Shown: piece after piece, positions 32,305-55,295 of the stretch
Position numbering within the stretch: position 1 is the first letter of the stretch
Layout of the letters: each line of letters starts with the position of its first letter
Origin: Williamsia maris
GTDB lineage: Bacteria; Actinomycetota; Actinomycetes; Mycobacteriales; Mycobacteriaceae
Direction: 5' to 3'
Assembly: GCF_024171815.1 (NCBI RefSeq)
Contig: NZ_JAMTCJ010000001.1
Location: 62,001-126,000, forward strand
DNA: 64,000 nucleotides
Notes under the pieces: model-generated
What the model saw: the letters and a program-made list of their open reading frames with translations, nothing else
Told to the model about the DNA's origin: nothing
Databases searched by the model: none
Position numbers and translations under genes: made by a program

Positions 32305-33453
32305 ATGACCGAACAGCGTCTCGGACGACATTCTCGACGCGACGACGACGCGGCGGACACGTCCGACGGTTTCGTCTTCGCACCGCAGGAGACGTTCGCG
32401 CCCCCTGTCGCACCCGTGCGGCAGGCGCCCGCTCGACCGGCACCCGCTCGACCGGCACCCATGCGGCAGCCACCGATCGAGCAGGCTCCACCGAGGCGAC
32501 CCCGACCCGTCGGTCCGCTCGCCGTGGAGGTGTCCGGCCTCACCAAGACCTACGGCGAGCACCGGGTGGTCGACGATGTCGACTTCGTCGTGCCGGAGGG
32601 CACCGTGCTGGGCCTGCTGGGCCCCAACGGTGCGGGCAAGACGACCATCGTGCGGATGTTGGCCACACTGTTGCGGCCCGACGCCGGCCAGGTGCGGATC
32701 CTGGGCCGCGACGTGGCCAAGGACTCCACCGCCGTCCGCTCCCTGATCTCGCTCACCGGTCAGTACGCGTCGGTCGACAACGACCTCACCGCGCTGGAGA
32801 ACCTCGACATCTACGGTCGACTGCTCGGCCTGAAGGGATCGCAGGCCCGCGCGCGGGCACGTGAGCTGGTCGACCAGTTCGGTCTCGCCGACGCCGCGAC
32901 CCGCCCGGTGCAGGGATTCTCCGGCGGCATGCGCCGTCGCCTCGACCTCGCGGCGAGCATGATCCACCGCCCCGCACTGCTGTTCCTCGATGAACCCACC
33001 ACCGGGCTCGACCCCCGCACACGTACACAGCTGTGGGAGATCGTGCGCGACGTCGTCGCCGCCGGGACCACCGTCGTCCTCACCACCCAGTACCTCGACG
33101 AGGCGGACGCGCTCGCCGACCACCTCGTCGTCATCGACCACGGCCGCGTGGTCGGTCGCGGGACGCCCGAGACGCTCAAGCGGTCGGTCGGCAGCTTCTC
33201 GCTGTCCATCCGTCTCGCTGATCCCGGCAGCACGCAGGCCGCCGCCGCGACCATCCAGGAACTCCTCGGCCACTCGGTGGACATCGACCGCCGCACCGGT
33301 GAGCTCACCGCACCGGTCCCCGACTCCGCCCGCGCGGCACAGGTCATCGCGGCCCTGTCCGCACGCCGGATCACCGTCGGCGAGTTCGGCGTCCACTCGC
33401 CCTCGCTCGACGAGGTCTTCCTCGCCCTCACCGAAGACCGGAGCCAGAAATGA
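32305..33453 (+). CDS. DrrA-type ABC exporter ATPase, copy 1
   Basis: Start at ATG 32305 with GGGGGAAAG upstream; 382 residues. The first 72 residues are a low-complexity extension rich in Arg, Asp and then Ala-Pro-Arg (a repeated ARPAP). The ATPase domain follows with Walker A GPNGAGKTT (about residue 106), signature FSGGMRRRLDLAASM, Walker B LLFLDEPTTGLDP and a C-terminal DrrA-type domain. The family exports drugs and, in mycobacteria, PDIM-type lipids. It overlaps its permease (ATGA) and leads a run of same-strand genes. Copy 2 at 48520-49476 lacks the N-terminal extension. Confidence 0.9.
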   Translation: MTEQRLGRHSRRDDDAADTSDGFVFAPQETFAPPVAPVRQAPARPAPARPAPMRQPPIEQAPPRRPRPVGPLAVEVSGLTKTYGEHRVVDDVDFVVPEGTVLGLLGPNGAGKTTIVRMLATLLRPDAGQVRILGRDVAKDSTAVRSLISLTGQYASVDNDLTALENLDIYGRLLGLKGSQARARARELVDQFGLADAATRPVQGFSGGMRRRLDLAASMIHRPALLFLDEPTTGLDPRTRTQLWEIVRDVVAAGTTVVLTTQYLDEADALADHLVVIDHGRVVGRGTPETLKRSVGSFSLSIRLADPGSTQAAAATIQELLGHSVDIDRRTGELTAPVPDSARAAQVIAALSARRITVGEFGVHSPSLDEVFLALTEDRSQK

Positions 33454-34268
33454 CATCGACCGAGAACGTGTTCGCGGCGATCCCCACGGCGACGGTCACC
33501 GAGACCATCAGTGCGGGCAAGGCCGTCCGCGACACCGCCACGTTGGCGCGACGCGGCCTGCTCAAGTTCAAGCACTCCCCGCAGCTGTTGGTCGACGTCA
33601 TCATCGTGCCGATCATCTACACCGTGTTGTTCGGCAGCATCTTCGGCGGTGTCATCGCCGGCGACGTGACGACGTACCTCCCCACCCTGATCCCCGGCGT
33701 GCTGGTCAACGTGGCGATCACCTCGACCGTCGTCGTAGGCATCCAACTGCGTGAGGACATCGACAAGGGCATGCTCGATCGCTTCGTGTCGATGCCGATC
33801 TCGCGCATCGCACCGTTGGCGGGCGGACTGGTGGCCGCGAACCTGCGGTACCTGATCGCGGTGGTCATCACCGTCATCGCCGGCGTGGCGATGGGATACC
33901 GACCGGCGAGCCCGCTGGGGGTGCTCGCCTCGGCGGCCCTGGTCGTGTTCTCGGCGTTCGCGTTGAGCTGGGTGTTCGCCCTGATGGGGGTCGTACTGAC
34001 GAAAGCCTCGGCCGTGCAGGGTTTCTCAGCACTGCTGCTCACCATCCTGGGTTTCACGTCCAACGCGTTCGTCCCCACCAGCACCCTGCCCGGGTGGCTG
34101 CGGCCGATCGCCGAGGTCAACCCGCTCTCGCAGCTGATCTCCGCGGTGCGTCTGCTCTCCAACGAGGGACAGGTCGACCACCACCTCGTCTACTCGGTTC
34201 TCGGTTCGCTGCTGATCATGGCGATCGCGACACCGCTCACCGTGCGCATCTACCTGCGCAAGCTCTGA
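33450..34268 (+). CDS. DrrB-type ABC exporter permease, copy 1
   Basis: The 272-residue ABC-2 family permease has six predicted membrane segments, with FKHSPQLLVDVIIVPIIYTV at the first and the ABC-2 signature region DIDKGMLDRFVSMPISRIAPL between segments two and three. It should form the membrane channel for the ATPase encoded just upstream. It is clearly paralogous to the permease at 47708-48523 (shared FGSIFGGVIAGDVTTYLP-like and FALSWVFALMGVV-like stretches). The substrate is inferred to be a glycolipid from context. Confidence 0.88.
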   Translation: MTSTENVFAAIPTATVTETISAGKAVRDTATLARRGLLKFKHSPQLLVDVIIVPIIYTVLFGSIFGGVIAGDVTTYLPTLIPGVLVNVAITSTVVVGIQLREDIDKGMLDRFVSMPISRIAPLAGGLVAANLRYLIAVVITVIAGVAMGYRPASPLGVLASAALVVFSAFALSWVFALMGVVLTKASAVQGFSALLLTILGFTSNAFVPTSTLPGWLRPIAEVNPLSQLISAVRLLSNEGQVDHHLVYSVLGSLLIMAIATPLTVRIYLRKL

Positions 34269-34308
34269 CGAGCGCGCCCACCGACGCCCTCGACGCTGGA
34301 GGAACGAC

Positions 34309-35691
34309 GTGCCCGACCGCACACCACCCGTGCTGCGCACCACCGCCGACGACGACCTGTTCATCAGGATGGACCGCGCCCTGGGTGTGCCCGTCGTCAA
34401 CCAGATCGCCTGGCGTCTGACGTCGGCACCGGATGAGCGCGAGCTGGAGCAGCTGTTCGGTCGGTTGGCGTCGGGTCGGCTCGGACGGCTGCTCCGACGG
34501 ACCGGCCTCCCGCTCGTACGGGATCACTGGGTCGGCGCCGGGGCCGCGTCGGGCCGTCGGGTGGCCGACACCGAGCCCGTCGCCGAGGGAGCGGTGGTCG
34601 CGTGGATCGACGCGGCCGCGTCGCGACCGCTCGATCTGACCGAGGGCCCGGTCTGGGAACTCCGCTCGGCACCGCTGGCCTCCGGGGGCGCGGTCGTCTC
34701 GCTGTGCGTCGCGCACGCGGCCGGCGACGGCTCCGCGGTGATCGACGCCGTACGCGCCGCCCTCGACACCACCGCCGCCACCTCGTTCGCAGCCCGGTCG
34801 CCGGGGCTGATCGAACAGGCCGTCGACGCCGCGACGCAGGCAGGCGCCATCACCAGCAACCTCGTTGCCCTGGCGCGCGGCGCGATCTCCGCACGCACCG
34901 CCGGATCACCGTCCGACGGCAACGACGACCGCACCGGGCAGGCCCCGCTGTCGGCACGGACCAGCCGGGTGGTCCCCCGGGATCCCGACGCCGCGCCCGA
35001 CGACCACGTCGCGTTGGCCCCGGTGTGCATCGTCGGCGTCCCGACCGAGCAGTGGGCGGCGGTGGCCGCCGCGTCCGGCGGCTCGTCGAACACCCTGTTC
35101 ATCGCGATCGTGGTCGGGATGCTCGTCGCGGGTGGCCGTGCCGGTGACGACGACGTCGTCCGGATCTCGATCCCGATGTCGTTGCGCGGCGGCGTTCCCG
35201 ACGACCGGGCCAACGCCACGCTCGGTTTGTCGCTGGATGTCCCGGCCTCGGCGGCCCGCGACAAGGACCTGGCGACCATCCGCGCGTTGTCGAAGGACGT
35301 CTACGCCCAGCGCACCGCCCGCCCGGGCACGTTCGTGCGGCTGCAGCCGATGATGCAGGCCCTCGGCGACCGCGCCGTGGCCGCGCTGAGCAAGGGGGCG
35401 ACCACCCCGTTGGCACTCGCCTCGAACCTGGGCTCCCTCGACGACCACCTGGCCGGGCTCGGCGATCCCAACCGGGCCGACGGGATCGTGACCCGGTCGA
35501 CCACCCAGGCGATCAGCACGGCCCGTCTGCGGGAGCTGCGGGGCGGCCTGGCCGCCTGGGTCAACGACACCGGCCAGACCACGACGGTGTCGGTGATCGG
35601 GCTGGATCCCGACGGCCTGGGGCGCACCTCGCTGTCGCCGATCCTGCACGCCGAGCTGGCCCGATGGTCCCTGACACCGCGGGAGTGGTGA
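34309..35691 (+). CDS. WS/DGAT-like acyltransferase D1 (DDRANA family)
   Basis: The 460-residue protein starts at GTG with GGAGG seven bases upstream. It has a condensation/WS-DGAT-type active-site motif HAAGDG with His136 and Asp140, a later SLRGGVPDDRANATLGL and an ASNLGSL motif like the SNxxG of wax-ester synthase/diacylglycerol acyltransferases. It probably moves an acyl group onto a hydroxyl. The DDRANA motif is shared only with the proteins at 42650-44005 and 44049-45371, defining a three-member family in this locus. It is followed four bases later by a glycosyltransferase, so acylation and glycosylation are probably coupled. The donor and acceptor are unknown. Confidence 0.75.
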   Translation: MPDRTPPVLRTTADDDLFIRMDRALGVPVVNQIAWRLTSAPDERELEQLFGRLASGRLGRLLRRTGLPLVRDHWVGAGAASGRRVADTEPVAEGAVVAWIDAAASRPLDLTEGPVWELRSAPLASGGAVVSLCVAHAAGDGSAVIDAVRAALDTTAATSFAARSPGLIEQAVDAATQAGAITSNLVALARGAISARTAGSPSDGNDDRTGQAPLSARTSRVVPRDPDAAPDDHVALAPVCIVGVPTEQWAAVAAASGGSSNTLFIAIVVGMLVAGGRAGDDDVVRISIPMSLRGGVPDDRANATLGLSLDVPASAARDKDLATIRALSKDVYAQRTARPGTFVRLQPMMQALGDRAVAALSKGATTPLALASNLGSLDDHLAGLGDPNRADGIVTRSTTQAISTARLRELRGGLAAWVNDTGQTTTVSVIGLDPDGLGRTSLSPILHAELARWSLTPREW

Positions 35692-35695
35692 TCGG

Positions 35696-36967
35696 ATGAG
35701 ACTCGCGCTGGCGCTCAACGGCAGTCGGGGTGACGTCCAGCCGGGCATCGCCGTGGCTCTGGAGATGACGTCGCGGGGCCACGAGGTGGTCGTCGGCGTC
35801 CCGGAGAACCTCGTCGACTTCGCCCGCGGCCACGGTGTCGACGCGCAGATGTTCGCCCCCGACACCGACGACCTCCTCAGGTCCCCGCTGATCAAACGCG
35901 ACCTGAAGTCACCGAACCCGCGCACCCGCGCACGAGCCATCCGCGAGGTCACCGAGTTCGGGGCGGCCACGATGGACGACCGACTGCTCGAGATGGCCGA
36001 CGGAGCAGACCTGGTCGTCACCGGACTGATGGGCCAGGAACGCGGTGCGACGGTCGCCGAGCACCGGGGCGCCCGGTTCGTTCCCCTGCACTACTGCCCC
36101 GTCCGGCCGAGCCGGAGCGTTCCGGTGCCTCTCGGACCACTCGCTGCGCTGCGTGCGGTACCGGTGCTCAGCGAGGCCGTCTGGCGACTCGTCGACCACG
36201 CCTTCTGGTGGGGTTCGGCGCGACGCGGTGATGTCGCCCTGCGACAGCGATTGGGCATGGCCCCCGCCTCCGGGCCGCTCGGCAACCGACTCCGCAGCGC
36301 CGACAGCCCGGAGATCCAGGCGTACGACCCCGGCCTGTTCCCGACGCTCGCCGCCGAGTGGGGGCCGCAGCGCCCCTTCACGGGGTTCGTGACACCGCCC
36401 GCACCCGCGCGCGATCATCCGAGCGCCGACGACACGGTGTCGACGTGGCTCGACCAGGGGCCGCCTCCGGTGTACGTCGGGTTCGGCAGCATGCCGCTGG
36501 CCGACGCCCCGACAACCTTCACCCATCTCGTCGAGACGATCCGTGCACAGGGACACCGCGTCCTGCTGTGCGCGGGACCGAACGCCGAGGCCGTCGCCGG
36601 GCGTCTCGACGGTCCCGAGGTGCTGGTGGTCGGCGCGGTCGACCACGGGCTCGTGCTGCCGCGATGCGTCGCCGCGGTCCACCACGGCGGCGCCGGCACC
36701 ACCGGGGCCTGCGCGCGGGCGGGTGTCCCCAGCTTGATCGCTGCGTTCAGCGCCGATCAACCGATGTGGGGTCGCGCGATCAGCGACGCCGGCCTGGGGG
36801 CCACGTGCGGGATCCGGCACGCCGACGACAACGACGTGCTGCCCGACCTGATCCGCCGGATTCTCGACCCGGGGACCGCGCAGCGGAGTCGTACATTTGC
36901 ACGACTAATGATCGACCCCGCGGACGCCATCACGGCAATAGCGGAAATACTCGAGCAGACGGTGTGA
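35696..36967 (+). CDS. GT1 glycosyltransferase of the mycobacterial Gtf type, copy 1
   Basis: The 423-residue protein has the N-terminal acceptor-domain signature LNGSRGDVQPGIAVALEM and NLVDFARGHGV, and the C-terminal donor-binding motif VHHGGAGTTGACARAGVPS followed by DQPMWG. These are hallmarks of the sterol-glucosyltransferase-like family that includes the Gtf enzymes of glycopeptidolipid and lipooligosaccharide synthesis. It would transfer a sugar to a lipid or glycolipid acceptor in the cytoplasm. Its paralogue is at 45411-46679. The 3-prime end is slightly AT-richer than the rest. Confidence 0.88.
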   Translation: MRLALALNGSRGDVQPGIAVALEMTSRGHEVVVGVPENLVDFARGHGVDAQMFAPDTDDLLRSPLIKRDLKSPNPRTRARAIREVTEFGAATMDDRLLEMADGADLVVTGLMGQERGATVAEHRGARFVPLHYCPVRPSRSVPVPLGPLAALRAVPVLSEAVWRLVDHAFWWGSARRGDVALRQRLGMAPASGPLGNRLRSADSPEIQAYDPGLFPTLAAEWGPQRPFTGFVTPPAPARDHPSADDTVSTWLDQGPPPVYVGFGSMPLADAPTTFTHLVETIRAQGHRVLLCAGPNAEAVAGRLDGPEVLVVGAVDHGLVLPRCVAAVHHGGAGTTGACARAGVPSLIAAFSADQPMWGRAISDAGLGATCGIRHADDNDVLPDLIRRILDPGTAQRSRTFARLMIDPADAITAIAEILEQTV

Positions 36968-37049
36968 CGTACCGTCCACCTCGGATCCTGAGATCGTGCG
37001 TTCGTATCGGTTATGCGAGACTGTGCCTCAACTCACGTAAGGACATTTG

Positions 37050-38105
37050 ATGCATTCAGGAATCAGCCGCGAAACGGGGACATCTCCGATGATGAACTCG
37101 ACTCGGCCGTTGCGATCACGGCGTTTTGTGACATTTGTCATCGCAGCGATGACATCATTGTGCGTCGTCACATCCCTGTCTGCAACCGCAGCCGCGTCGC
37201 CCTCGGTCTCGACGATCGAACGCGTCGCCCGAGAAGGGCCGACCCAGTACGGCGTCTACGTGTACTCGGCGTCGATGGCGAAGACGATCAAGGTCCAGGT
37301 CCTCGTCCCCAGCGTCGCGCGCGGCCCCCGGCCGGTGCTGACGATGCTCAGCGGACTCGGCGAGGAGGACCCCACCAACAGCATGTGGCTGCGCAAGTCC
37401 GACGCGGCCACCTTCTTCCGCGACAAGAACGTCACGGTGGCCCTCCCGCTCGCGGGCAACGGCAGCTTCTACACCGACTGGCAGCGTGACGATCCGAAGC
37501 TCGGGCGCTACCGCTGGGAGACCTTCCTGACCCGCGAGCTGCCACCCCTGTTGGACAAGCAGTTCTCCGGCAACGGGATTCACGGTGTTGCCGGCCTGTC
37601 GATGGGTGCAGGTTCCGCCCTGACCCTCGCAGCGCGCAAGCCCGGGTACTTCAAGGCGGTCGGGTCCTACAGCGGCTGCTACTCGACGGCCGACATCGTC
37701 TCGCAGGGCATCCCGCGCGCCATCGTCGCGGCCTTCGGCGGCGACGCGACCAACATGTGGGGTGCGCCGAACAACCCGGCCTGGGCCGCGCACGACGTCC
37801 TGCTGCACGCCAACGGGCTCCGCGGCTCCGCCGTCTACGTCTCGGTCGGCAGCGGCCTGCCCGGGCCCTACGACGCACCGAACTACCCCGGGAACACCAA
37901 TCCCGCCGACCGCCTGATCGTGGGCGGCGCCATCGAGGCGGGCGCGAACTTCTGCACCCACCGCCTCGCCGACACGCTCGCCGCCAAGCGGATTCCGGCG
38001 ACCTTCGACTTCGAGGCGCGGGGATCGCATTCCTGGCCCTATTGGAACGACCAAATGCATCGCAGCTGGCCGACGCTTTCGCGCGGTTTGGGCGTAACCG
38101 GATAA
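37050..38105 (+). CDS. Antigen-85-like mycolyltransferase/esterase inside the glycolipid locus
   Basis: The ATG at 37050 has AAGGA six bases upstream, giving 351 residues; a second ATG pair lies at 37089. After a 24-residue polar start comes a signal segment (FVTFVIAAMTSLCVVTSL) ending near ATAAAS. The alpha/beta hydrolase domain has the nucleophile elbow GLSMGAGS (Ser184) and the catalytic His in GSHSWPYW near the C-terminus, plus the typical GGDATNMWG. Antigen 85 enzymes transfer mycolates to trehalose and arabinogalactan outside the cell; this copy could acylate the product of the surrounding locus. The upstream gap of 82 bases suggests its own promoter. Confidence 0.88.
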   Translation: MHSGISRETGTSPMMNSTRPLRSRRFVTFVIAAMTSLCVVTSLSATAAASPSVSTIERVAREGPTQYGVYVYSASMAKTIKVQVLVPSVARGPRPVLTMLSGLGEEDPTNSMWLRKSDAATFFRDKNVTVALPLAGNGSFYTDWQRDDPKLGRYRWETFLTRELPPLLDKQFSGNGIHGVAGLSMGAGSALTLAARKPGYFKAVGSYSGCYSTADIVSQGIPRAIVAAFGGDATNMWGAPNNPAWAAHDVLLHANGLRGSAVYVSVGSGLPGPYDAPNYPGNTNPADRLIVGGAIEAGANFCTHRLADTLAAKRIPATFDFEARGSHSWPYWNDQMHRSWPTLSRGLGVTG

Positions 38106-38351
38106 CAGTAAACAAAGATCTGTTGACGGATACGTAATAGGTGACAACATTTACCGACGGATGGTCACAGGCACTTGCGCACTGAGACTTTCACAGGCTA
38201 AATACTCACTCGACACCGAAAAAATCAACGGCGATCACGTTAGTGTCTGGTGTGGAGTGGAGTCCTTCGACAGGGCTGCGGAGCGGGGGCTCTGGGGGGA
38301 TCGTCAATGCGCCAGGTCAGAAATGTGCCAGGACAGTAAGGAGATCTCCCC
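38106..38351. other. AT-rich intergenic region upstream of the first A-B-C trio
   Basis: This 246-base gap is much AT-richer than the genes around it. It holds an imperfect inverted repeat AACAG/CTGTT just after the mycolyltransferase stop, a TTGACGGATACG string, a TAGTGT -10-like box near 38241, and the ribosome site AAGGAG before the ATG at 38352. It probably contains a terminator and the promoter of the acyltransferase trio. No gene is supported here. Confidence 0.45.
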
Positions 38352-39866
38352 ATGGAGTACACCGAGCTCGCCGACTATCCACTCCCGGCCGGAACGGTCA
38401 CCGAGTGGACGCCGGCCGCCGATGACCACGACTGGGCCGACGACGACCGCCGACTGTCCTACGTCCACCTCGAGCACGCACGCCGCGCCCACGAGGTCGG
38501 CGACGAGTGGTACAGCCAGTGGATCGGCACCGCGTTCACGATCGACCACCCGCTCTGCGCCGACGCCATGGCCGCGACCCTGCAGCGCTGGTTCGCCCGG
38601 CACGAGGCGTTCCGCTCGACGGTGACCCGGCACCCCGATGTGGACGCCAACCACCTCGAGGACGAGTTCGGACGCCGCATCATCGCCGCCGACAAGGTGA
38701 GCATCGCGATCGCACGGGACGAGGAGCCCTCGACCAGCAGCGCGGTCTACGAGCGCATCAACGAGCTGTTCAACACCCGCATCAGCCCGCTGGCCTGGCC
38801 GCACTGCCTGGTCACGACGGTCGAGCCCGAGGACACCCCGGGATCGTTCCTGCTGGTGTTCGGCGCCGACCACACCGTCATGGACGCCTACACGCAGGTG
38901 TTCGCGATCAAGGAGCTCACGCGGCTCTACGAGTCGGCACTGCTGGGCCACGACGACTCCCTCGCCACCTTCGGCAGCTACCTCGACTTCAGCCACGCCG
39001 AGCGGGCCAGCGGTGCCCGTCTGGCCGCCGACACCGTCGAGGTCACCCGGTGGGCGAACTTCCTGCAGGCGCACTCCGACGCCACGTCGATCACGCAGCC
39101 GGACCCGATGCCCGCGTTCCCGCGTGCGCTGCCGGCGTCGCAGTCCCAGGTCGGTCCGCTCACCCGGGTCGAGACCACCCATTCACGCTTCCAGGGCAGT
39201 CTGTCGACCTGGCTGCTCGACGCCGAGCAGACCGAGCGGTTCCACCGCGCCTCCAAGGCGGCGGGCGCGAACATGGCCGCAGGCATCTACACCGCACTGT
39301 CGATCACCACGCACCGACTCTCGGGCACCGGGGACCTGCGCTTCATCAGTCCCGTGCACACCCGGACCGAGCTGCAGTGGGGCGAGGCCGCCGGATGGTT
39401 CGTCGGCCTGATCCCGGTCCACCTGCGTCCGGGGGCCGCACGCACCTTCTCCGAGGCCATCGGCCCGGTCGCCGAGTGCGCACGTGAGTACAAGGACCTG
39501 GGCACCGTGCCGTTCCACCCGATCGCCGACCTGATCGGGCACCGCACCCCGCCGCAGTTCGTCGTCTCCTACATCGACCTCCGCGGTGCCGAGGGCGCCG
39601 ACCAGTGGGACACCCACGACGCCCGCGTGCTCCGCAGTGCCTGCGCGTCGTCGGACGAGGTCTACTTCTGGATCAACCGGATCCCGACGGGCACCAACCT
39701 CTCGGCCCGGTTCCCCAGCCACCACCCCGGCGCCAACGACGTGCACCGGTTCCTGCGCACCTTCAACGATGTACTCCTCGAGATCGTCGAGGCCGGTGAC
39801 ACCGGATTCGACGTCGAGACCGCGATGTCTGCCCCGGGAGGGCAACCGGGCGGCCTCACGTCGTGA
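38352..39866 (+). CDS. PapA-like condensation-fold acyltransferase, class A copy 1
   Basis: 504 residues, starting at an ATG with AAGGAG eight bases upstream. It begins MEYTELADYPLPAGTVTEW, nearly identical to class A copy 2 at 50027. The active-site motif is DHTVMDAY with His174 and Asp178; the first His of the usual HHxxxDG is Asp and the Gly is Ala. Other landmarks are RRLSY, PVHTRTELQW, AGWFVGLIPV, SYIDLR and EVYFWINR. Mycobacterial PapA proteins of this kind esterify trehalose or diols with acyl chains. No carrier-protein or adenylation domain is fused, so this is not an NRPS. It overlaps the class B gene by four bases. Confidence 0.85.
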   Translation: MEYTELADYPLPAGTVTEWTPAADDHDWADDDRRLSYVHLEHARRAHEVGDEWYSQWIGTAFTIDHPLCADAMAATLQRWFARHEAFRSTVTRHPDVDANHLEDEFGRRIIAADKVSIAIARDEEPSTSSAVYERINELFNTRISPLAWPHCLVTTVEPEDTPGSFLLVFGADHTVMDAYTQVFAIKELTRLYESALLGHDDSLATFGSYLDFSHAERASGARLAADTVEVTRWANFLQAHSDATSITQPDPMPAFPRALPASQSQVGPLTRVETTHSRFQGSLSTWLLDAEQTERFHRASKAAGANMAAGIYTALSITTHRLSGTGDLRFISPVHTRTELQWGEAAGWFVGLIPVHLRPGAARTFSEAIGPVAECAREYKDLGTVPFHPIADLIGHRTPPQFVVSYIDLRGAEGADQWDTHDARVLRSACASSDEVYFWINRIPTGTNLSARFPSHHPGANDVHRFLRTFNDVLLEIVEAGDTGFDVETAMSAPGGQPGGLTS

Positions 39867-42621: not shown

Positions 42622-42649
42622 GCCCGGACCGCCGGACACGTCAGCCGCC

Positions 42650-44005: not shown

Positions 44006-44048
44006 CCGCTCGACACTAGTTGCCCTGGCGTATCACCGCAGCGCGTGA

Positions 44049-45371: not shown

Positions 45372-45410
45372 GGTCCCGAGCATAGGGCCGGGACCATTAC
45401 GGTGTTGTCC
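45372..45410. promoter_or_regulatory. Compact divergent promoter between D3 and Gtf copy 2
   Basis: Only 39 bases separate the two starts. The minus strand has TATGCT (45384-45379) close to the D3 ATG; the plus strand has CATTACGGT a few bases before the Gtf ATG. Both genes are probably leaderless, and their promoters must overlap, so they are likely co-regulated. Confidence 0.4.
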
Positions 45411-46679: not shown

Positions 46680-46806
46680 TCACCACCACGATCAGCGGTC
46701 GTCGCCGGGCCGCCGCGCCCGGGATCGCTTAGGGTCAGGGCGTGTCGTGTGCACGGCGAACCTTCTCACCGCACGCGCACGACGCCTGACCGGGGGTGAG
46801 GAAAGA

Positions 46807-47691
46807 ATGTCGACGACGCTGCTGTCCGTGGTGATTCCCACGTACAACGAGGAGGACGTGATCGCCGACTGCCTCGACCGTCTGCTGCCCCAGCTCGATC
46901 ACATCCACGAGATCGTCGTGGTGGACAACAACTCCGGTGACAAGACGGTCGACATCGTCGCGACGTACGTCGACCGCTACCCGGCTGTCCGGATGATCTC
47001 CGAGGAGAGTCAGGGACTGGTGTTCGCGCGTAACGCGGGCCTCGACGCCGCCACCGGGACCGCGATCGCCCGCATCGACTCCGACACCATGGTCGGACCG
47101 CGCTGGGCCGCCGACATCGTCGACTTCCTCGACGCCGACACCGACGGCCGGTGGGCCGCCCTGTGCGGTCGCGGCGAGGCCTATGGCCTCCCCTACGGCG
47201 ACGCGATGTCGCGGATCAAGGAGCGGATCGCGTTCCTGCCGTTCGCCGCACGTCGCCACAGCAGGAATTCGGAGGTCAAGCCGGTCTTCGTGCTCTACGG
47301 GTCGAACATGGTGCTCCGACGCGACACGTGGCTGGCCATCCGCGAATCGGTGAGCATGCGCCGCGACATCTTCGAGGATGTCGACACCGGGTTGTGCGTC
47401 GGCGAGATCGGTGGCCGCAACGCCTTCCTGCCCCATCTCGGGGTCGGGGTGTCGCCGCGCCGGATGGAGAGCAGCGTCGGCTCGTTCGTCCGCTACATGA
47501 GCTTCCTACCGCGGACGTTCCTGCTGCACAAGCGATACGGACTCGCGCTCGGTTCGCTGACGCTCTACGTCCCGTGGGTGACAGTGGTGCATTCCGCCCG
47601 GCTGATCCTGATCCGGAGCTACGACGTCGAGACGCGGACGTTCGCGCCGCGTCACCTGCTGCGGCGGACCACCGACCGCATCATGCCCTGA
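46807..47691 (+). CDS. GT2 family glycosyltransferase
   Basis: The ATG at 46807 has GAGGAAAGA just upstream, giving 294 residues. The GT-A fold is evident: SVVIPTYNEEDVIADCLDRL, VVDNNSGDKTVDIV, SQGLVFARNAGLD and the metal-binding RIDSDTMVG. A C-terminal segment with aromatic and basic residues (VRYMSFLPRTFLLHKRYGLA) may associate with the membrane. It probably adds one sugar to the locus product. A TTAGGGT box around 46729-46735 may be its promoter. It converges with the second exporter across 15 bases. There is no counterpart near the first module. Confidence 0.85.
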   Translation: MSTTLLSVVIPTYNEEDVIADCLDRLLPQLDHIHEIVVVDNNSGDKTVDIVATYVDRYPAVRMISEESQGLVFARNAGLDAATGTAIARIDSDTMVGPRWAADIVDFLDADTDGRWAALCGRGEAYGLPYGDAMSRIKERIAFLPFAARRHSRNSEVKPVFVLYGSNMVLRRDTWLAIRESVSMRRDIFEDVDTGLCVGEIGGRNAFLPHLGVGVSPRRMESSVGSFVRYMSFLPRTFLLHKRYGLALGSLTLYVPWVTVVHSARLILIRSYDVETRTFAPRHLLRRTTDRIMP

Positions 47692-47707
47692 GTCGTACCG
47701 CCACGCC

Positions 47708-48523
47708 TCACGCGCGGCGCATGTAGACCCGCAACGTCAACGGCGCCACCACGATCAGCACGACGGCCGCGCCGAGCAATGACCACGCGATCTGCATCCC
47801 GTAGATCCCGTCGGCCATCTCCCGTACCGCGGAGACAAGGTGCGAGACCGGGTTCACCCCGGCGAACGCCTGCATCCACCCGGGCATCGTCGCCACCGGG
47901 ACCAGGGCGTTGGACATGAACGTCAGCGGCATCAACACGAGCATCGACACCCCCTGCACCGTCGACGCCTTCTCCATGACGACCCCCATCAGCGCGAAGA
48001 TCCAGCTCAACGCGAACGCGACCACGACGACCAACACGCAGGCGAGAACGACCCCGACCACACTGCCCGGTCGGTACCCCATGAACAGGCCGACGATGAC
48101 GGTGATCGTGGTACCGACGATGTAGCGGAGCACGTCGGCGAGCAACGATCCGGCCAGCGGCGCGATCCGGGCGATCGGGAGCGTGCGGAAGCGGTCGAAG
48201 ACCCCCTTGTTCATGTCCTCGCGCAACTGGACTCCGGTCGTGACCGAGGCCGCCAGGGCGACCTGCACGAGAACCCCGGGGATGAGGATCGGGAGATAAC
48301 CGGTCACGTCACCGGCGATCGCCCCGCCGAAGATGCTCGAGAACATCACGGTGAACACGATCGGCAGGACGATGACGTCGAACAGGTGTTGCGGGTTGTG
48401 CTTGATCTTGAGCAGTCCCCGGCCCGCCATGGTGGCCGACTGGGTGACCGCCTCGACGACGGTCACCTGACGGGCGGTGGGCGTGGGGGTGTCGATGTGC
48501 GACACCGTCGAGATGGCGGTCAT
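47708..48523 (-). CDS. DrrB-type ABC exporter permease, copy 2
   Basis: The 271-residue permease starts at ATG 48523, overlapping the ATPase stop (ATGA). It has six membrane segments with FDVIVLPIVFTVMFSSIFGG, DMNKGVFDRFRTLPIARIAPL and FALSWIFALMGVV, all strongly similar to the permease at 33450. A longer in-frame reading across the ATPase gene is a shadow. It should form an exporter with the ATPase encoded just upstream. Confidence 0.9.
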   Translation of the reverse strand: MTAISTVSHIDTPTPTARQVTVVEAVTQSATMAGRGLLKIKHNPQHLFDVIVLPIVFTVMFSSIFGGAIAGDVTGYLPILIPGVLVQVALAASVTTGVQLREDMNKGVFDRFRTLPIARIAPLAGSLLADVLRYIVGTTITVIVGLFMGYRPGSVVGVVLACVLVVVVAFALSWIFALMGVVMEKASTVQGVSMLVLMPLTFMSNALVPVATMPGWMQAFAGVNPVSHLVSAVREMADGIYGMQIAWSLLGAAVVLIVVAPLTLRVYMRRA

Positions 48524-49476
48524 GCTGCGTCCTCTCCGACGCCGGTGATCGAGAAGAACACGTCGTCGAGACTCGGCTTGACCACGTTCACCTCGGCCAG
48601 CTCGATGCCCACCGAACCGAGCGCCACCAGGATTCGGCCCACCACCGCGAGGTCGGTCAGGGCCACGGTCAGGGTTCCGTCGCCCGCGGCGGTCACCGCA
48701 CCCGTCGGCACATGCCGTTCGGCGACGGAGAACGCGAGTGCGACAGCCGTCGGTTCGGCAGGCGTGAGCACGAGCGCCGAACTGCCGACCGACGACTTGA
48801 GTCCGTCGGCCGTCCCCTCGGCCACCACCCTGCCGCGATCGATGACCGCGATGCGGTCCGCGAGCTGGTCGGCCTCCTCGAGGTATTGGGTGGTCAGCAG
48901 GATCGTCGACCCCTCGGCGACGAGCTGACGCACCGTGTCCCACATCTGCGCCCGCGTCCGCGGGTCGAGCCCGGTGGTGGGCTCGTCGAGGAACAGCAAC
49001 GGCGGCCGCGAGATCAGACTGGCGGCGAGATCGAGCCGCCGGCGCATGCCGCCGGAGAAGTTCTTCAACGTCTTCGACGCGGCCTCCTGCAGACCGAACT
49101 GTTCGAGCAGGTCGTGCGCACGGGCCCGCGAGTGACGACGCGAGCGCCCCAGCAACCGGCTGAAGACCATCAGGTTCTCGGTCGCGGTCAGGTCCTCGTC
49201 GACCGAGGCGTACTGCCCGGTGACGCCGATCATCGATCGCACCTCGGTGGCCTCGGCCACCACGTCGCGGCCGAAGACGCGCGCGCTGCCGCCGTCCGGA
49301 CGCAACAGCGTCGCGAGCATCCGCACCGTGGTCGTCTTGCCCGCTCCGTTCGGGCCGAGCACCGCGTACACACTTCCCTGTGGCACGACGAGATCGACCC
49401 CGTCCACCGCCCTCATCGACCCGAAGGTCTTGGTCAGTGCGTGGGTCTCGATGGCCGGCCGATCGCCCGGTGTCAT
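48520..49476 (-). CDS. DrrA-type ABC exporter ATPase, copy 2
   Basis: The 318-residue ATPase has Walker A GPNGAGKTTTVRM (about residue 37), signature FSGGMRRRLDLAASL, Walker B LLFLDEPTTGLDP and a C-terminal DrrA extension. The ATG has GAGGGG about six bases upstream. Compared with copy 1 it lacks the 72-residue proline-rich extension. It is divergent from the second A-B-C trio across a 550-base gap. Confidence 0.9.
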   Translation of the reverse strand: MTPGDRPAIETHALTKTFGSMRAVDGVDLVVPQGSVYAVLGPNGAGKTTTVRMLATLLRPDGGSARVFGRDVVAEATEVRSMIGVTGQYASVDEDLTATENLMVFSRLLGRSRRHSRARAHDLLEQFGLQEAASKTLKNFSGGMRRRLDLAASLISRPPLLFLDEPTTGLDPRTRAQMWDTVRQLVAEGSTILLTTQYLEEADQLADRIAVIDRGRVVAEGTADGLKSSVGSSALVLTPAEPTAVALAFSVAERHVPTGAVTAAGDGTLTVALTDLAVVGRILVALGSVGIELAEVNVVKPSLDDVFFSITGVGEDAA

Positions 49477-50026
49477 GTGTGTCCCCTCGATCGAGTCGTC
49501 GCGACATCGTGGAGTGTCGCCGTCAGAACCTCTGTCGTGTGCGCGATCTGGGCAAAGTGTAGGTGCCGATTCACGTTGTCGGCGGCGCTGATCGGCGCGA
49601 AGCGCGCCGCATCGGTCGTTCTTGTTCGGATGTACGGCGCGATGTCACACGCCCGTTACACGGATGCGATCTCGATGACTCAAAGGACCGCGTGATCTCG
49701 AAGTCGCTGTGGCGTCGAGATTTTCGGTGATCGTCCTCACCGTCATCCGAAAGCCGTTGCAAGCAACGCGATCTGAGGTATCTGAACACTCCTCCGGGGG
49801 CGTGTGACGGTCCGGACCGGCCCATCAGTGATGAAGAACACTCGTTACCCAGGTAAACAACATCGGCCCGGTCTGCCTACCATTTGCTCACCCCCGAATC
49901 GGGCATCTCCGAACGAACGGGGCATCCGACGGGCTCGGCAGCGCTGCCGGGATCGACCGCACGACACCTTCGATGCGTGTCGCTCATGCCCAGGACCACC
50001 ATCGGCGCGAAATCTGAGAGGCTGAA
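49477..50026. other. Large intergenic region between exporter copy 2 and the second A-B-C trio
   Basis: I see no convincing gene in these 550 bases; the short open frames lack ribosome sites and family features. The region is AT-richer than the genes. It holds a GGCGCG/CGCGCC hairpin near 49595-49610, a dyad TTACCCAGGTAA (49845-49856) placed just upstream of a TACCAT -10-like box (49878-49883), and a CGACAC/GTGTCG inverted repeat closer to the class A start. It most likely carries divergent promoters and a leader of over 100 bases for the trio. Confidence 0.45.
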
Positions 50027-51475
50027 GTGGAATTCACCGAATTGGCCGACTACCCCCTACCGGCCGGACAGCTGACGGAGTGGACTCCACGTCTCGTCGA
50101 CGACGAGAGCGCCTGGGTGCACGACACCCGGCCACTGAGCTACCTGCACGAGGACTACTGCGGGCGCGGCAGCACCTGCCATCCGCCCACCGCACCCGAG
50201 GACGGGCACCAACGTGGGTCCTGGCTGGGTGCGGCGTTCGAGATCCCGCATCGCCACGACCCCGACGCGGTGGCCCGCGCCCTCACGGTGTGGATGCGTC
50301 GGCACGAGGTCTTCCGGACCACGGTCTCCGAGACCCGCGACGACGACGGTGTCCGCCTGTGCCGACGATCGACCTCCGATGTCGAGGTGGCCGGCACCGT
50401 CGTCGGTCACATGCGTACGGGCACAAGGGTTCACGAACACCTCGTCGGCCTCTTCGAGCGACTGTCCCCGCTGCAGTGGCCGCACTGCCTGGCGGTCACC
50501 ATCGCCCAGACCGACTCCGCCGAGGACTCCTTCGTGCTGGTGTTCGGCGCCGACCACTCGGTGATGGACGCCTACTCCATGCTCCTCGCGATCGGTGAGA
50601 TCCAGCGCATCTACGAATGCGAGTTGGCGGGGCAGGACCCCGAACTACCCATGGCGGGAAGTCATCTGGATTTCAGCGTGGACGAGCGGGTGGTCGGACA
50701 GGCCCTCGACGCCGAGCACCGCGCGGTCGACGTGTGGAGTCGCTTCCTCGCGCGTGACGAGGGCCGGTTCCCCGCGTTCCCACTCCCGGTCACGGGCCCG
50801 AGCTCGTCGCACCGCCGACACCAGAGCGGCACATCGTCCTGGGTCCTGTCGGCCACGCAGTCCGACGCGATCAACCGCCGCGCCCGCGAGTCCGGACACT
50901 CCATGCAGTCCGCCGTGCTCGCCGCGCTCGCGCTGACCACGCGGACGGTCGCCGGCGCCGACGTCACCCGGTTCGCGATGCCCATGCACACCCGCAACCA
51001 GGCGCAGTACGTCTCGTCGGTGGGGTGGTTCGTCGGGATGATCCCGATCGAGGTGGACGTGCGCGGGGTGGAGTCGTTCGACGACTGCCTGTCGCGGGCG
51101 GGCGGCGCGGTCACCGCGCACAAGGACCTGGCGCAGTTCCCGTACCCACGCATTGCCGAACTCATCGGCGTCGAGGAGGTGCCACGGTTCGTCGTGTCCT
51201 ACGTCGACGCCCGCTTCATCCCGGCCGCGCAGGACTGGTCCCGCTGGGGTGCGCGAACCCTGCGCGGAGCGGCCGAATCCGACGACGAGGTCTACCTCTG
51301 GATCGTCCGGTCTCCGAAGGGCATCTCGGTCTCGGCGCGGTTCCCGAGCAACCCGGTCGCGACCGCCGGTGTGCACGACTACCTGAACTCTTTCACCGCG
51401 GTGCTGGCACGGCTCGCCGCGGCCGGTACCGACCAGACCCGGCTCAGCGCCGACGATCTCGTGGCTGCGAGCTGA
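50027..51475 (+). CDS. PapA-like condensation-fold acyltransferase, class A copy 2
   Basis: 482 residues from a GTG with GAGAGG five bases upstream. It starts EFTELADYPLPAGQLTEWTP, almost matching copy 1 at 38352. The active-site motif is DHSVMDAYS with His177 and Asp181. PMHTRNQAQY, VGWFVGMIPI, SYVDARF and EVYLWIVR complete the family landmarks. The gap to the class B gene is five bases. Role as for the other PapA-like proteins: transfer of an acyl group to a sugar or lipid hydroxyl, inferred from family. Confidence 0.85.
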   Translation: MEFTELADYPLPAGQLTEWTPRLVDDESAWVHDTRPLSYLHEDYCGRGSTCHPPTAPEDGHQRGSWLGAAFEIPHRHDPDAVARALTVWMRRHEVFRTTVSETRDDDGVRLCRRSTSDVEVAGTVVGHMRTGTRVHEHLVGLFERLSPLQWPHCLAVTIAQTDSAEDSFVLVFGADHSVMDAYSMLLAIGEIQRIYECELAGQDPELPMAGSHLDFSVDERVVGQALDAEHRAVDVWSRFLARDEGRFPAFPLPVTGPSSSHRRHQSGTSSWVLSATQSDAINRRARESGHSMQSAVLAALALTTRTVAGADVTRFAMPMHTRNQAQYVSSVGWFVGMIPIEVDVRGVESFDDCLSRAGGAVTAHKDLAQFPYPRIAELIGVEEVPRFVVSYVDARFIPAAQDWSRWGARTLRGAAESDDEVYLWIVRSPKGISVSARFPSNPVATAGVHDYLNSFTAVLARLAAAGTDQTRLSADDLVAAS

Positions 51476-51480
51476 TCGCG

Positions 51481-52983
51481 ATGATGATCGACATGCTCTC
51501 GCACTGGCAACCCGCACGGGGCCGCCTGGTGGAGCTCACGGCGACGGCCGCGTCGGTGGCCGCCGCCGGCTCGGCGCTCGCCCACCCGACACCGGCGTCG
51601 TTCCTCCAGGAGAACCACCTGCGGGGATCGGCGGCCACCGCGGCGCGCGGTGACGCGCACAAGGCCTACCTCGCCGCCACCACCGAGGTCGAGGGCGACT
51701 TCGACGCCGACGCGCTGGCCCGTGCCTTTCGGCGATTCGTCGCGCGGCACGACGGGCTGCGGTCGTGGTTCGACGTCACCGACGGGGCGGTCACCCGGCA
51801 CATGGTGGCCCTGGCCGACATAGCCTTCGAGGCGACGGCCGTCGGCTCGGTCGACGACTACGGATATCTTCGGGCCGACGACGGGGCGGCGCCGCTGGCG
51901 CGTCGGTTCTCCGACCACGTCGAGCAACGCTTCAGCCAGAACGCCAACGCTCTGAGCTGGCCGGGTTTCGTCGCCGGTGCGATCGTCCGCGCCGACGGCT
52001 TCACGCTCTACTACGGCTGCGATCACGCGCTGAGCGACGGCATCTCCCAGGCTCTCGTCCTGGCCGAGGTGGCCGACCTGTACCTCTCCGAACGCGATGG
52101 CACCGACGTCGGCCCGTTCACGTCGGCACCCGCGGGATCCCAGCTCGACTACGTGGTGGCCGAACGCGCCCGCGCGCAGACGCTCACCGAGTCGTCGCCG
52201 GAGGTGCGTGGCTGGGTCGACATCGTCGCGCGCCACGGCAACCGGATGCCCCAGTTCCCCCTCGACCTCGGCCTGGCCCCCGGGGAGACCGCACCGGTCA
52301 CCCCGATCAAGTTCGACGTCCTCGACGCCGCCGGCGCGGAGGTCTTCGACCGGATCTGCCGGGATCACGGCGCCCGGATGATCGGCGGCATCATCGCCGC
52401 CCTGGCGATCGTCGATCACGAGTTGGCCGGGGTGGACAGCTATTTCGGCATCACCGCACTGAGCGATCGCGCTCTCGCGGGGAGCGAGCTCTCGCAGGGC
52501 TGGTTCTGCCGTTTCGCGCCGGTGTCGTTCCCCATCACGCCCGCCCGGACGTTCACCGAACTGGTGTCCGCCGCGCAGCAGGGGTGCGAGGTCGGCAAGT
52601 CGCTGTCGGATGTGCCGGTGCACACCGTGCTCGGCTCACTCCTGGCCAGCGGCGCGCAGAGCGGCGACGTGCTCATCACCCCGCAGTTGCTCTCCTACAT
52701 CGACTTCCGCCGGTTCCCGATGGCAGGCACCGCGGTATACGACCGCGGCATGCAGACCACCGGCGAGGGACGCACCTCGAATGCGTCCATGTGGGTGAAC
52801 CGGGACGACTCCGGTGTGTACGTCGGGACCCAGACGCCGGACACACCGACCGCCCAGCGGCGCCTGGCGCGCTACCACCGACGACTGCGGGAGGTGTTCG
52901 CGGCGGTCGTGGCCGAGGGCGACCACGTGATCGCGACCGCGGTCACCGAGAGGGAGCCCAGCCTTGCGCGTCACCACGATTGA
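51481..52983 (+). CDS. PapA-like condensation-fold acyltransferase, class B copy 2
   Basis: 500 residues if the first of three close ATG codons (51481, 51484, 51493) is used; no strong ribosome site, so it is probably coupled to class A. It begins LSHWQPARGRLVEL and has SFLQENHL, the active-site motif DHALSDGIS (His182, Asp186, Gly kept), ALSDRAL in place of PxHTR, GWFCRFAPVSF and SYIDFRRF. It matches copy 1 at 39863 feature for feature, confirming class B as a distinct type. The in-frame extension upstream of 51481 is a shadow of the class A gene. Confidence 0.83.
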   Translation: MMIDMLSHWQPARGRLVELTATAASVAAAGSALAHPTPASFLQENHLRGSAATAARGDAHKAYLAATTEVEGDFDADALARAFRRFVARHDGLRSWFDVTDGAVTRHMVALADIAFEATAVGSVDDYGYLRADDGAAPLARRFSDHVEQRFSQNANALSWPGFVAGAIVRADGFTLYYGCDHALSDGISQALVLAEVADLYLSERDGTDVGPFTSAPAGSQLDYVVAERARAQTLTESSPEVRGWVDIVARHGNRMPQFPLDLGLAPGETAPVTPIKFDVLDAAGAEVFDRICRDHGARMIGGIIAALAIVDHELAGVDSYFGITALSDRALAGSELSQGWFCRFAPVSFPITPARTFTELVSAAQQGCEVGKSLSDVPVHTVLGSLLASGAQSGDVLITPQLLSYIDFRRFPMAGTAVYDRGMQTTGEGRTSNASMWVNRDDSGVYVGTQTPDTPTAQRRLARYHRRLREVFAAVVAEGDHVIATAVTEREPSLARHHD

Positions 52984-54319
52984 CCGGTTCACCCCGGTCG
53001 GCGGGACACTGCACACCTGGTCGGTGAACTCGTCGGACAGCACGCCGGTCGTCTCGGCAGTCCCACCGTCGTTCAACCAGAGCTTCCACCTCGCCTCCGC
53101 AGGCGATTCCGACGACGCACCGAGCACGTGGCTCGCGGCGTCGTTCGACATCGACGGGCCCATCGATCTCAAGGCCATGGAGCAGGCGTACGCCATGCTC
53201 ATCGCCCGCCACGGCACACTGCACAGCGGCTTCACCCGTGAGAACGGCGCCATCGTCCGACGACTGCACGACCCGGCGACCCTGGGGCTCGACGCCGCGG
53301 CGCCCGTGGTCGGGCTCGACTCCGACGGGCTCCGCACCCACCTGTGGGACGCCCTGAACACCTCGTGCCCGATGCTCGGACCGCCGAGCTACCTGCTCGC
53401 CGCGGTCGACCGCAGCGATCGTTCGACGATCATCTGCGGCTTCGACCACGCCCACGTCGACGCCTACTCGATGGCGATCGTCATCGACGACCTGCACCAG
53501 CTGTACGAGGGATGCCTCGCCGAGCCCGGAGGGTTCTGCCCCCGGCGCCTGCCGCAGGCGGGCAGCTTCGTCGACTACTGCGCCGCCGAGGCCGACGACG
53601 ATCGCGACTACCGCACCCACCCGGCCATGGCGCGATGGCTCGAGTTCTTCGAGCGACACCGCAACACCCCGCCGTCGTTCCCGCTCGACCTCGGACTCGC
53701 CCCCGGCGAACAGGCACCCCAGGCCGTCGACCTGAGACAGGTGCTCGACCGCACCGGACTCGACGCGTTCGAGCGCGTGTGTCGCGAGAACGGCGCCAGC
53801 GTGTTCGCGGGCGTCCTGGCGGCGATGGCCCAGGCCGCGCACAACCTCGGCGCCGGGCGCGAGATGTCGGTGCTGTTCCCGATGCACACGCGTCGCTCCC
53901 GGCTGTGGCAGAACGCGGTGGGCTGGTTCACCACCAACGCCCCGCTGACCGTGCGCTGCGCAGACGACGTCCTCGACACCCTCGCCGCCACCGGGCCGGC
54001 GTTGCGGTCGGCCGTCGCACTCGGCGAGATCCCGGTGCCCCACGTCCTCGAGGCGATCGGCGGTCTCACCTGCCTGCGCAACGACATCTTCATGGTCTCC
54101 TACATCGACTACCGCCGACTCCCCGGCGCCGCCGCCCACGCCACGATCGACGCGCACCACATCTCCAACGTCACCACCGCCGACGACGCACAGTTCTGGG
54201 TCTCGCGGACCGACGACGGCGTCGCGCTGCGGAGCCGGTACCCGGACACACCGACCGCCCACACCCAACTGGGCGCGTTCTTCGCCGAGCTGGAGTTCGT
54301 CGTTCGCTCGATCATCTGA
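52964..54319 (+). CDS. PapA-like condensation-fold acyltransferase, class C copy 2
   Basis: 451 residues from a TTG with GGGAG upstream, overlapping the class B end by 20 bases. Its start (TTIDRFTPVGGTLHTW) lines up with copy 1 at 41275. The active-site motif is DHAHVDAYS with His162 and Asp166. PMHTRRSRLW, VGWFTTNAPL and SYIDYRRL are present. It is the last gene of the inserted locus; sseA begins 92 bases later with its own -10-like box. Confidence 0.83.
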   Translation: MRVTTIDRFTPVGGTLHTWSVNSSDSTPVVSAVPPSFNQSFHLASAGDSDDAPSTWLAASFDIDGPIDLKAMEQAYAMLIARHGTLHSGFTRENGAIVRRLHDPATLGLDAAAPVVGLDSDGLRTHLWDALNTSCPMLGPPSYLLAAVDRSDRSTIICGFDHAHVDAYSMAIVIDDLHQLYEGCLAEPGGFCPRRLPQAGSFVDYCAAEADDDRDYRTHPAMARWLEFFERHRNTPPSFPLDLGLAPGEQAPQAVDLRQVLDRTGLDAFERVCRENGASVFAGVLAAMAQAAHNLGAGREMSVLFPMHTRRSRLWQNAVGWFTTNAPLTVRCADDVLDTLAATGPALRSAVALGEIPVPHVLEAIGGLTCLRNDIFMVSYIDYRRLPGAAAHATIDAHHISNVTTADDAQFWVSRTDDGVALRSRYPDTPTAHTQLGAFFAELEFVVRSII

Positions 54320-54410: not shown

Positions 54411-55295
54411 GTGACCGTCCAGACCGACCCATATCCGGGCTTCGCCGCCTACGCTCACCCCGAGCGACTGGTCAGCACCGAATGGCTCAGCGCCAACCTC
54501 GGGACCCCCGGACTCAAGGTCGTCGAGTCCGATGAGGACGTCCTTCTCTACGACATCGGCCACATCCCGAGCGCGCAGAAGATCGACTGGCACCTGCATC
54601 TCAACGATCCCGTGACCCGCGACTACATCGACGGCGACCAGTTCGCGGAGTTGATGCGCGCCAAGGGGATCCGACGCGACGACACCATCGTGATCTACGG
54701 CGACAAGTCCAACTGGTGGGCCGCCTACGCCCTGTGGGTGTTCACCCTGTTCGGCCATTCCGACGTTCGCCTGCTCGACGGCGGACGGCAGGCCTGGTTC
54801 GCCGAGGACCGTGAGACCAGCTTCGAGGTCCCCGAGTACCCGCGATCGGACTACCCGGTGGTCGACCGCGACGACAGCACGATCCGCGCGTTCGCCCCGC
54901 AGATCCGCGAGATCATCGGGTCCGAGCCGCTCATCGACGTCCGCTCGCCCCAGGAGTACTCCGGCGAGCGCACCCACATGCCGGAGTACCCGCAGGAGGG
55001 TGCGTTGCGCGGCGGCCACATCCCGACCGCCGTCTCCATCCCCTGGGCCAAGGCCGCCGCCCCGGACGGGCGCTTTCGCAGCCGCACCGAACTCGACGAG
55101 ATCTACGGCGACTTCGCACCGGATCAGCCGACCGTCGCCTACTGCCGCATCGGTGAGCGCTCATCGCACACCTGGTTCGTGCTGACCCACCTACTCGGGT
55201 TCTCCCGGGTGCGCAACTACGACGGCTCGTGGACCGAGTGGGGCAATGCGGTGCGCGCACCGATCGTCACCGGTGACGACCCCGGCACGCTGTGA
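54411..55295 (+). CDS. sseA: Thiosulfate/3-mercaptopyruvate sulfurtransferase SseA
   Basis: The 294-residue two-domain rhodanese has the N-terminal linker region [14 protein letters not shown] and the active-site loop with Cys in [13 protein letters not shown] in the second domain. It transfers sulfane sulfur to acceptors. The GTG start follows a TAGGCT box (54361-54366). It resumes the conserved order after the inserted locus and overlaps the SufE-like gene (GTGA), suggesting the two cooperate in sulfur transfer. Confidence 0.9.

Follow-up and report, generated by a model that had tools for sequence, protein, structure and literature searches.

We analyzed a 64,000-nt stretch of the 4.93-Mb genome of Williamsia maris, hereafter the window, in which a set of genes for glycolipid acylation and export lies between maf and an sseA-like gene. 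An earlier reading of this stretch (the original prediction) had described such a set, and its named genes all exist as open reading frames (ORFs) in the places it gave them. The starts of GT2 (46807, or farther upstream in frame), WS3 (45371) and B2 (near 51484) were corrected. Seventeen genes fill the interval between maf (31585–32175, + strand; above the TIGR00172 cut-off) and the sseA-like gene (54411–55295, +), which encodes a sulfurtransferase of the 3-mercaptopyruvate type and matched NF008557 at 2.1e-23, under the cut-off of that family. In Mycobacterium tuberculosis, maf and sseA are neighbors. The gap is short in other genomes as well, measuring 536 bp in G016 and 347–681 bp between matches in five genomes of group g6 (G, L and g followed by a number denote surveyed genomes, loci and genus groups, respectively).

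Mapping the window’s proteins onto related loci separated the 22 kb into two adjoining blocks. Module 1 (32305–42621) lies wholly on the + strand in the order DrrA-DrrB-WS1-GT1a-Ag85-like-A1-B1-C1, and module 2 (42650–54319) reads WS2(−) WS3(−) GT1b(+) GT2(+) DrrB2(−) DrrA2(−) A2(+) B2(+) C2(+). Most parts occur twice, as had been claimed, and the partners within the window are diverged: identities were 55% for DrrA, 55% for DrrB, 45% for the GT1 glycosyltransferases (GTs), 40%, 34% and 35% for the PapA-like proteins A, B and C, and 30–34% among the WS acyltransferases. Family-library matches, together with identity to the partner copy for DrrA2, B2 and C2, showed no polyketide synthase (PKS), FadD or MmpL among the locus genes, in agreement with the original prediction.

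Module 1 opens with an ATP-binding cassette (ABC) exporter, comprising the ATPase DrrA1 (32305–33453; above the TIGR01188 drrA cut-off) and the membrane part DrrB1 (33450–34268; ABC2_membrane), which overlap by 4 bp. WS1 (34309–35691), an acyltransferase of an orphan WS/PapA-like family with an HxxxDG motif, is followed by GT1a (35696–36967), a Gtf-type glycosyltransferase by its matches to Gtf-like families. The Ag85-like mycolyltransferase (37047–38105; the true start is possibly further in) belongs to the Esterase family (PF00756), carries the GxSxG nucleophile as GLSMG, and is nearest to Cmt1 (4.5e-52). The GxSxG motif was present in 23/23 Ag85-like proteins preceding A1. The trio A1 (38352–39866), B1 (39863–41278) and C1 (41275–42621) completes the module, with 4-bp overlaps between A1 and B1 and between B1 and C1. 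Both A1 and C1 exceeded the Pfam Condensation cut-off and matched PapA2 (6aef; 3.2e-18 and 1.2e-18), and B1 fell below the Condensation cut-off. The closest named record to A1 came from a Williamsia metagenome-assembled genome at 97% identity, and the next six listed were also from Williamsia, at 58–78%.

Module 2 begins with two minus-strand acyltransferases, WS2 (42650–44005) and WS3 (44049–45371; TIGR02946 at 5.8e-6, far under the cut-off), which were placed by alignment. Divergent from WS3 is GT1b (45411–46679), a Gtf-type enzyme whose best solved match was GtfB (1iir, 1.1e-32), followed by GT2 (46807–47691), a glycosyltransferase matching Glycos_transf_2 (PF00535) at 2e-27. The second exporter consists of DrrB2 (47708–48523), with DrrB-family matches below cut-off, and the ATPase DrrA2 (48520–49476). 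DrrA2 is divergent from A2 (50027–51475), and the 550 bp between them (49477–50026), the longest spacer inside the locus, form a possible control region. B2 (51484–52983) gave a near full-length alignment to PapA2 (1.3e-38) and overlaps C2 (52964–54319) by 20 bp.

Enzyme families and predicted chemistry

The active-site motif HxxxD was conserved in 82/82 A, 73/73 B and 69/69 C sequences, in 108/108 WS sequences, and in 30/30 sequences of a fourth PapA. This fourth gene (55757–57181, +; PapA2 at 3.7e-22) lies outside the locus as originally drawn, between SufE-like and accA3-like genes, and its product is 32–34% identical to A1 and A2. Of 71 regions, many of them too short to include this point, 39 had a PapA gene directly after the SufE-like gene, and the fourth PapA was kept even where the maf–sseA gap holds no trio (G016, G117, G160, G170, G209 and G218). 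For the four proteins tested (A1, B2, C1 and the fourth PapA), the best solved relative was the trehalose-2-sulfate acyltransferase PapA2. At E values up to 1, PapA5 (1q9j) was matched by B2 (0.078) and by neither C1 nor the fourth PapA; A1 falls outside this comparison because its structure search was thresholded at 0.01. From these similarities, A, B, C and the fourth PapA are predicted to be PapA-type acyltransferases acting on trehalose.

The original prediction had labeled the WS proteins as WS/DGAT-like (wax ester synthase/diacylglycerol acyltransferase). Fold comparison of WS1 recovered the WS/DGAT fold, so the label holds at that level, and it fails at the level of motif and curated cut-offs. 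WS1 scored 16.3 bits against PF03007 (cut-off 23.6), WS2 and WS3 had no PF03007 match at E 0.001, and the frame holding WS3 scored 25.5 against a TIGR02946 cut-off of 309.95. The WS/DGAT motif is HHxxxDG; the motifs of WS1–3 (AHAAGDG, SHMTSDG, LHLVADG) retain the second histidine and the DG and are missing the first histidine. PapA2 was not among the best 50 rows of the WS1 comparison, which has no bearing either way. At L130 of G006, a Williamsia genome without module 1, three consecutive WS2-like matches adjoin WS3, so that the WS family is expanded there.

A second Ag85-like protein is encoded at 59543–60583 (+), 3′ of the accA3-like gene, and has GISSS where the module 1 copy has GLSMG. 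All seven downstream copies examined share GISSS. The serine is retained, and judging from this motif the activity may differ from that of the module 1 enzyme.

We propose, with a probability of about 0.5, that the locus encodes two paralogous modules, each of which assembles and exports a polyacylated glycolipid, probably a glycosylated trehalose ester. The core would be a small sugar, probably trehalose; the genome encodes an OtsA-family gene. GT1, joined in module 2 by GT2, would attach sugar to this core, presumably one residue per GT gene. The A, B and C enzymes would then move acyl groups from acyl-CoA to different sugar hydroxyls, and the WS-like enzymes would attach further acyl groups, possibly to hydroxyls of chains already in place, which would explain acyloxyacyl motifs. 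DrrAB would export the product. For module 1, a last step outside the cell is conceivable, in which its secreted Ag85-like enzyme could transfer a mycoloyl or another acyl group.

A polyacylated glycolipid built on a different core, such as glucose, glycerol, a carotenoid or another lipid alcohol, is a possibility that we rate clearly below the trehalose reading. Sequence does not reveal acceptor specificity, GT1b resembles sterol glucosyltransferases too (5gl5, 9.7e-26), and mycolic acid bacteria make other acyl-glycosides. However, the trios are PapA2-like, no carotenoid gene was noticed among the neighbors examined (nine proteins run against Pfam), and a similar PapA quartet is reported, in the available text of PMC8396431, from the trehalose-ester producer Rhodococcus sp. 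I2R.

We consider it improbable that the enzymes decorate a non-ribosomal lipopeptide in the manner of the mycobacterial glycopeptidolipids. Gtf-type GT1 enzymes and acyltransferases do serve glycopeptidolipids, the Mycobacterium locus resembling the present one in both, and genes resembling non-ribosomal peptide synthetases (NRPS) occur elsewhere in 8/8 genomes of the genus. But the Williamsia modules, unlike the glycopeptidolipid locus, have DrrAB and PapA trios in place of NRPS and MmpL; no NRPS was present among the neighbors tested at other module sites; and the modules would supply more acyltransferases than a glycopeptidolipid requires.

Distribution and paralogy of the two modules

Both modules occupied the maf–sseA gap in 7/8 genomes of the genus and in G095 of g11, whose module 1 is without GT1. 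Among these two-module gaps, G001 is without DrrAB2, and G001, G004 and G007 have WS genes on the maf side. W. herbipolensis is a species with both modules at this site. G006 is the genome of the genus without module 1. A scan of named genomes yielded 23 loci (7 Williamsia and 16 Gordonia). In W. sterculiae, the whole of module 1 alone fills the gap (L051), and module 2 is at another place on that contig (L090). In five Gordonia loci (L055, L056, L067, L069 and L070) a module 1 core runs straight into sseA; this core consists of WS1, the Ag85-like gene, A1 and B1, plus C1 in three of the five. Ten further Gordonia loci (L057–L066) carry the core at other sites, where the strand of WS1, and usually that of GT1, is reversed, and one of them (L058) had no match to the Ag85-like gene. 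The remaining Gordonia locus, L068, has a trio of another type.

Six g11 genomes (G131, G064, G080, G017, G046 and G108) and G006 have module 2 by itself in the gap; in g16, g22, g28 and four genomes of g9 (one of which, G242, had no C2 match), it was found at other sites. Its gene order is the same in these genomes, as are its strands except that of GT2, which was found on either. Most module 2 copies outside the window’s genus have an extra minus-strand GT1 beside WS3 that is absent from the window. In G129 and G201 the module 1 core and module 2 are on separate contigs. Across genera, the gap contained either module or the two together, a shorter set, or no trio, which suggests that maf–sseA is a recurrent site for such gene sets in mycolic acid bacteria.

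Phylogenies gave the same separation. In the A tree, A1 fell with Gordonia sequences (24 rows, support 100), and the separate clade of A2 also held those of g11, g16, g22, g28 and g6 and of the locus L090 of W. sterculiae. Module 1 and module 2 copies were likewise separate in the DrrA and GT1 trees. Constrained tree tests on seven Williamsia genomes, with the G006b rows left out beforehand, rejected a single clade of Williamsia copies in 6/6 families (p = 0.0009 for A, 7.6e-6 for B, 4.1e-66 for C, 6.2e-49 for DrrA, 3.6e-87 for DrrB and 1.6e-10 for GT1); trees and tests alike came from quick searches under a simple model with long branches, and their fine branching is unreliable. Because the Williamsia copies were rejected as sisters in every family, the paralogy predates these genera. 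That is, a duplication older than the surveyed genera must have occurred, and the locus is two paralogous modules with their own distributions rather than one cluster duplicated and reshuffled.

The original prediction had explained the paired genes by an old duplication followed by rearrangement and inversion. The presence of a diverged partner for most parts in the window is what such a duplication within Williamsia would leave, yet we regard this account as very unlikely. In addition to the tree tests, module 2 stands alone in other genera with unchanged gene order, and its DrrAB and WS genes lie there on the same strands as in the window; the module 1 core occurs without module 2 in Gordonia, and the modules are apart in W. 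sterculiae. We also think it very unlikely that the DrrAB pairs are drug exporters, as the DrrA family name would have it, with the other genes as chance neighbors: in 22 of 71 regions, drawn from several genera, DrrAB stood between A2 and a GT2 or GT1 gene (counts in which several genomes contribute more than one region, and modules cut by region ends or lacking a part are undercounted), and DrrABC of M. tuberculosis serves lipid export.

Relation to known trehalose lipids

The original prediction held that the lipid would be undescribed. This may hold for the Williamsia products, and it must be qualified for the genes: a similar PapA trio with a fourth PapA had already been listed for Rhodococcus sp. 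I2R, in the only report to describe such a quartet (PMC8396431, as far as its available text goes) in the open-access literature searched. I2R makes succinoyl di- and trisaccharide trehalose esters, whose chains include hydroxy fatty acids, hexanoate, phenylacetate and acyloxyacyl groups and whose third sugar is probably glucose (PMC8396431). Its contig 9 carries papA3-papA1-papA3 and a further papA3, which the available text lists, without locus analysis, as candidate trehalose acyltransferases and the closest homologues of TlsA, the protein of Rhodococcus sp. SD-74 said to have a key role in succinoyl trehalose lipid (cited in PMC8396431). The identity of the quartet to TlsA is ~30%, a figure taken from that paper and relating to I2R rather than to Williamsia. 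As in the Williamsia locus, three successive PapA genes are followed by a spacer that would fit sseA-like and SufE-like genes and then by the fourth PapA. Williamsia differs in having another trio that comes with an exporter, GT1 and mycolyltransferase of its own, and the available text of PMC8396431 names no GT, WS or DrrAB beside the quartet.

By 16S, I2R is nearest to R. yunnanensis, then to R. cerastii and R. fascians (PMC8396431). In current NCBI taxonomy, R. yunnanensis, R. fascians and R. corynebacterioides belong to the genus Rhodococcoides. We computed stop-to-stop distances of 1448, 1407 and 2995 bp for the I2R quartet from the published coordinates and compared them with g6, a sample of 21 genomes with matches in the survey. 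In the ten g6 genomes whose gap holds the trio, the distances were 1450–1504 (nine genomes; G200 is cut), 1351–1405 and 2967–3092 bp; in four with maf between the trio and sseA, they were 1427–1460, 1334–1379 and 3917–3958 bp. As far as coordinates rather than sequences were compared, the I2R spacing closely fits the trio-in-gap kind.

Three kinds of gene content were found in g6. In ten of the 21 genomes (region GC 63–66%), the gap contains a single GT1, WS genes and the trio, with the PapA trio and fourth PapA arranged around sseA; one of them, G200, is split over two contigs and incomplete. Six (GC 68–73%) have two GT1, one GT2, WS2, WS3 and the trio just 5′ of maf, and five (GC 62–63%) have no trio. 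On a trehalose core, one or three GTs would yield a tri- or pentasaccharide, which are the sugar numbers of published lipids of this group. GT1 enzymes are inverting, and beta-glucose is the expected linkage. The lipids in question are a trisaccharide succinic tetraester from R. fascians and a pentasaccharide succinic octaester from Nocardia corynebacteroides SM1 (2015 review, PMC4365757, available text), and beta-glucose is the third sugar of two such lipids (PMC8396431). For Tsukamurella, the review names tri- and tetrasaccharide esters.

The sulfolipid-1, polyacyltrehalose/diacyltrehalose, lipooligosaccharide and trehalose polyphleate loci of Mycobacterium likewise combine PapA acyltransferases acting on trehalose with dedicated export, but they have PKS, FadD and MmpL, and the Williamsia locus is without all three.

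Several results pull in the opposite direction from a trehalose-ester reading based on two modules. The reaction of the WS enzymes is uncertain because the top fold match of WS1 was AzeD of Pseudomonas aeruginosa (8s6l), termed a dehydratase. Module 1 is not a fixed unit, as its Gordonia gap copies are without GT1 and DrrAB. The DrrA beside the module 1 core in four Gordonia loci grouped with a third module type (G044, G161, G013 and G106) and not with Williamsia DrrA1, so parts have been exchanged. The one-clade tests were run on quick trees with long branches, after the A, DrrA and GT1 trees were known. The link to I2R is based on published coordinates rather than sequence; of its three spacings, two miss the g6 range by 2 bp, and none of 15 g6 regions measured (G077 and G092 left out) matched all three exactly. 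The I2R lipids carry succinate, for which the authors suggest a SucT-like gene located on a different contig (PMC8396431, available text). The sugar-count match amounts to two points in g6 genomes that are not assigned to species, and we treat it as a lead. In the gap cluster of g30 (G147; L109:12587–14815), no GT was seen and no DrrAB was matched, an MFS-like (major facilitator superfamily) ORF being present instead; if g30 is Tsukamurella, this cluster counts against the sugar-count idea. Lastly, no product of a Williamsia or Gordonia module was found in the open-access literature searched.

The module family plausibly serves a lipid class whose chemistry is already known. A bolder combination of these points is that PKS-free modules plugged in repeatedly at maf–sseA, next to the acyl-CoA carboxylase genes, are the missing genetics of oligosaccharide trehalose lipids, that the number of GTs sets the number of extra sugars, and that the Williamsia modules are two new members; we hold this only tentatively and think it on balance unlikely to be right in full. 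If it were, one GT would give a trisaccharide and three a pentasaccharide, and Williamsia would make a mycoloylated trisaccharide lipid from module 1 and a tetrasaccharide lipid from module 2. Succinoyl and oligosaccharide trehalose lipids are surfactants whose chemistry has been known for decades, and relatives of the modules may be their missing genes. In the literature searched, TlsA alone was credited with a demonstrated part in the acylation of succinoyl trehalose lipids (cited in PMC8396431, available text). The modules offer a complete candidate set for sugar transfer, acylation and export, plus mycoloyl transfer in module 1, with a simple prediction tying GT gene number to sugar number, and they suggest a route to acylated glycolipids without PKS, FadD or MmpL in the locus.

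Neighboring genes and other observations

The locus is flanked on the left by genes for an AccD-like carboxyltransferase and maf, and on the right by those for the sulfurtransferase, a SufE/CsdE-like protein, the fourth PapA and an AccA3-like biotin carboxylase. Among the AccD-like, maf, sulfurtransferase, SufE/CsdE-like and AccA3-like proteins, maf alone exceeds its family cut-off.

ORFs longer than 11000 codons whose matches to the PapA query are condensation-like were found in 8/8 genomes of the genus and are presumably NRPS genes. The frame in W. maris itself has 11325 codons and lies outside the window (G000:C3:887751-891926).

Nine neighbor proteins at other module sites were run against Pfam. 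Six were identified, as an FtsK-like ATPase, a 3-hydroxyacyl-CoA dehydrogenase, LeuA, RpoC, a Na/H exchanger and DnaE; the others gave one weak lectin match, one DUF2330 match and one no match. No PKS, NRPS or MmpL was among these nine, and they gave no clear functional clue.

In g30, the gap contains PapA-like genes, a WS-like gene and the MFS-transporter-like ORF, the last recognized by reading its translation by eye; a short PapA-like ORF of 310 codons, also noticed by eye, follows maf. Members of a thiolase-like family (F6, recognized by eye) are encoded close to the module in Gordonia loci L060, L061, L063 and L066 and in G034 (L108), where the 3-hydroxyacyl-CoA dehydrogenase gene comes next. 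This neighbor may reflect chance or a supply of acyl chains.

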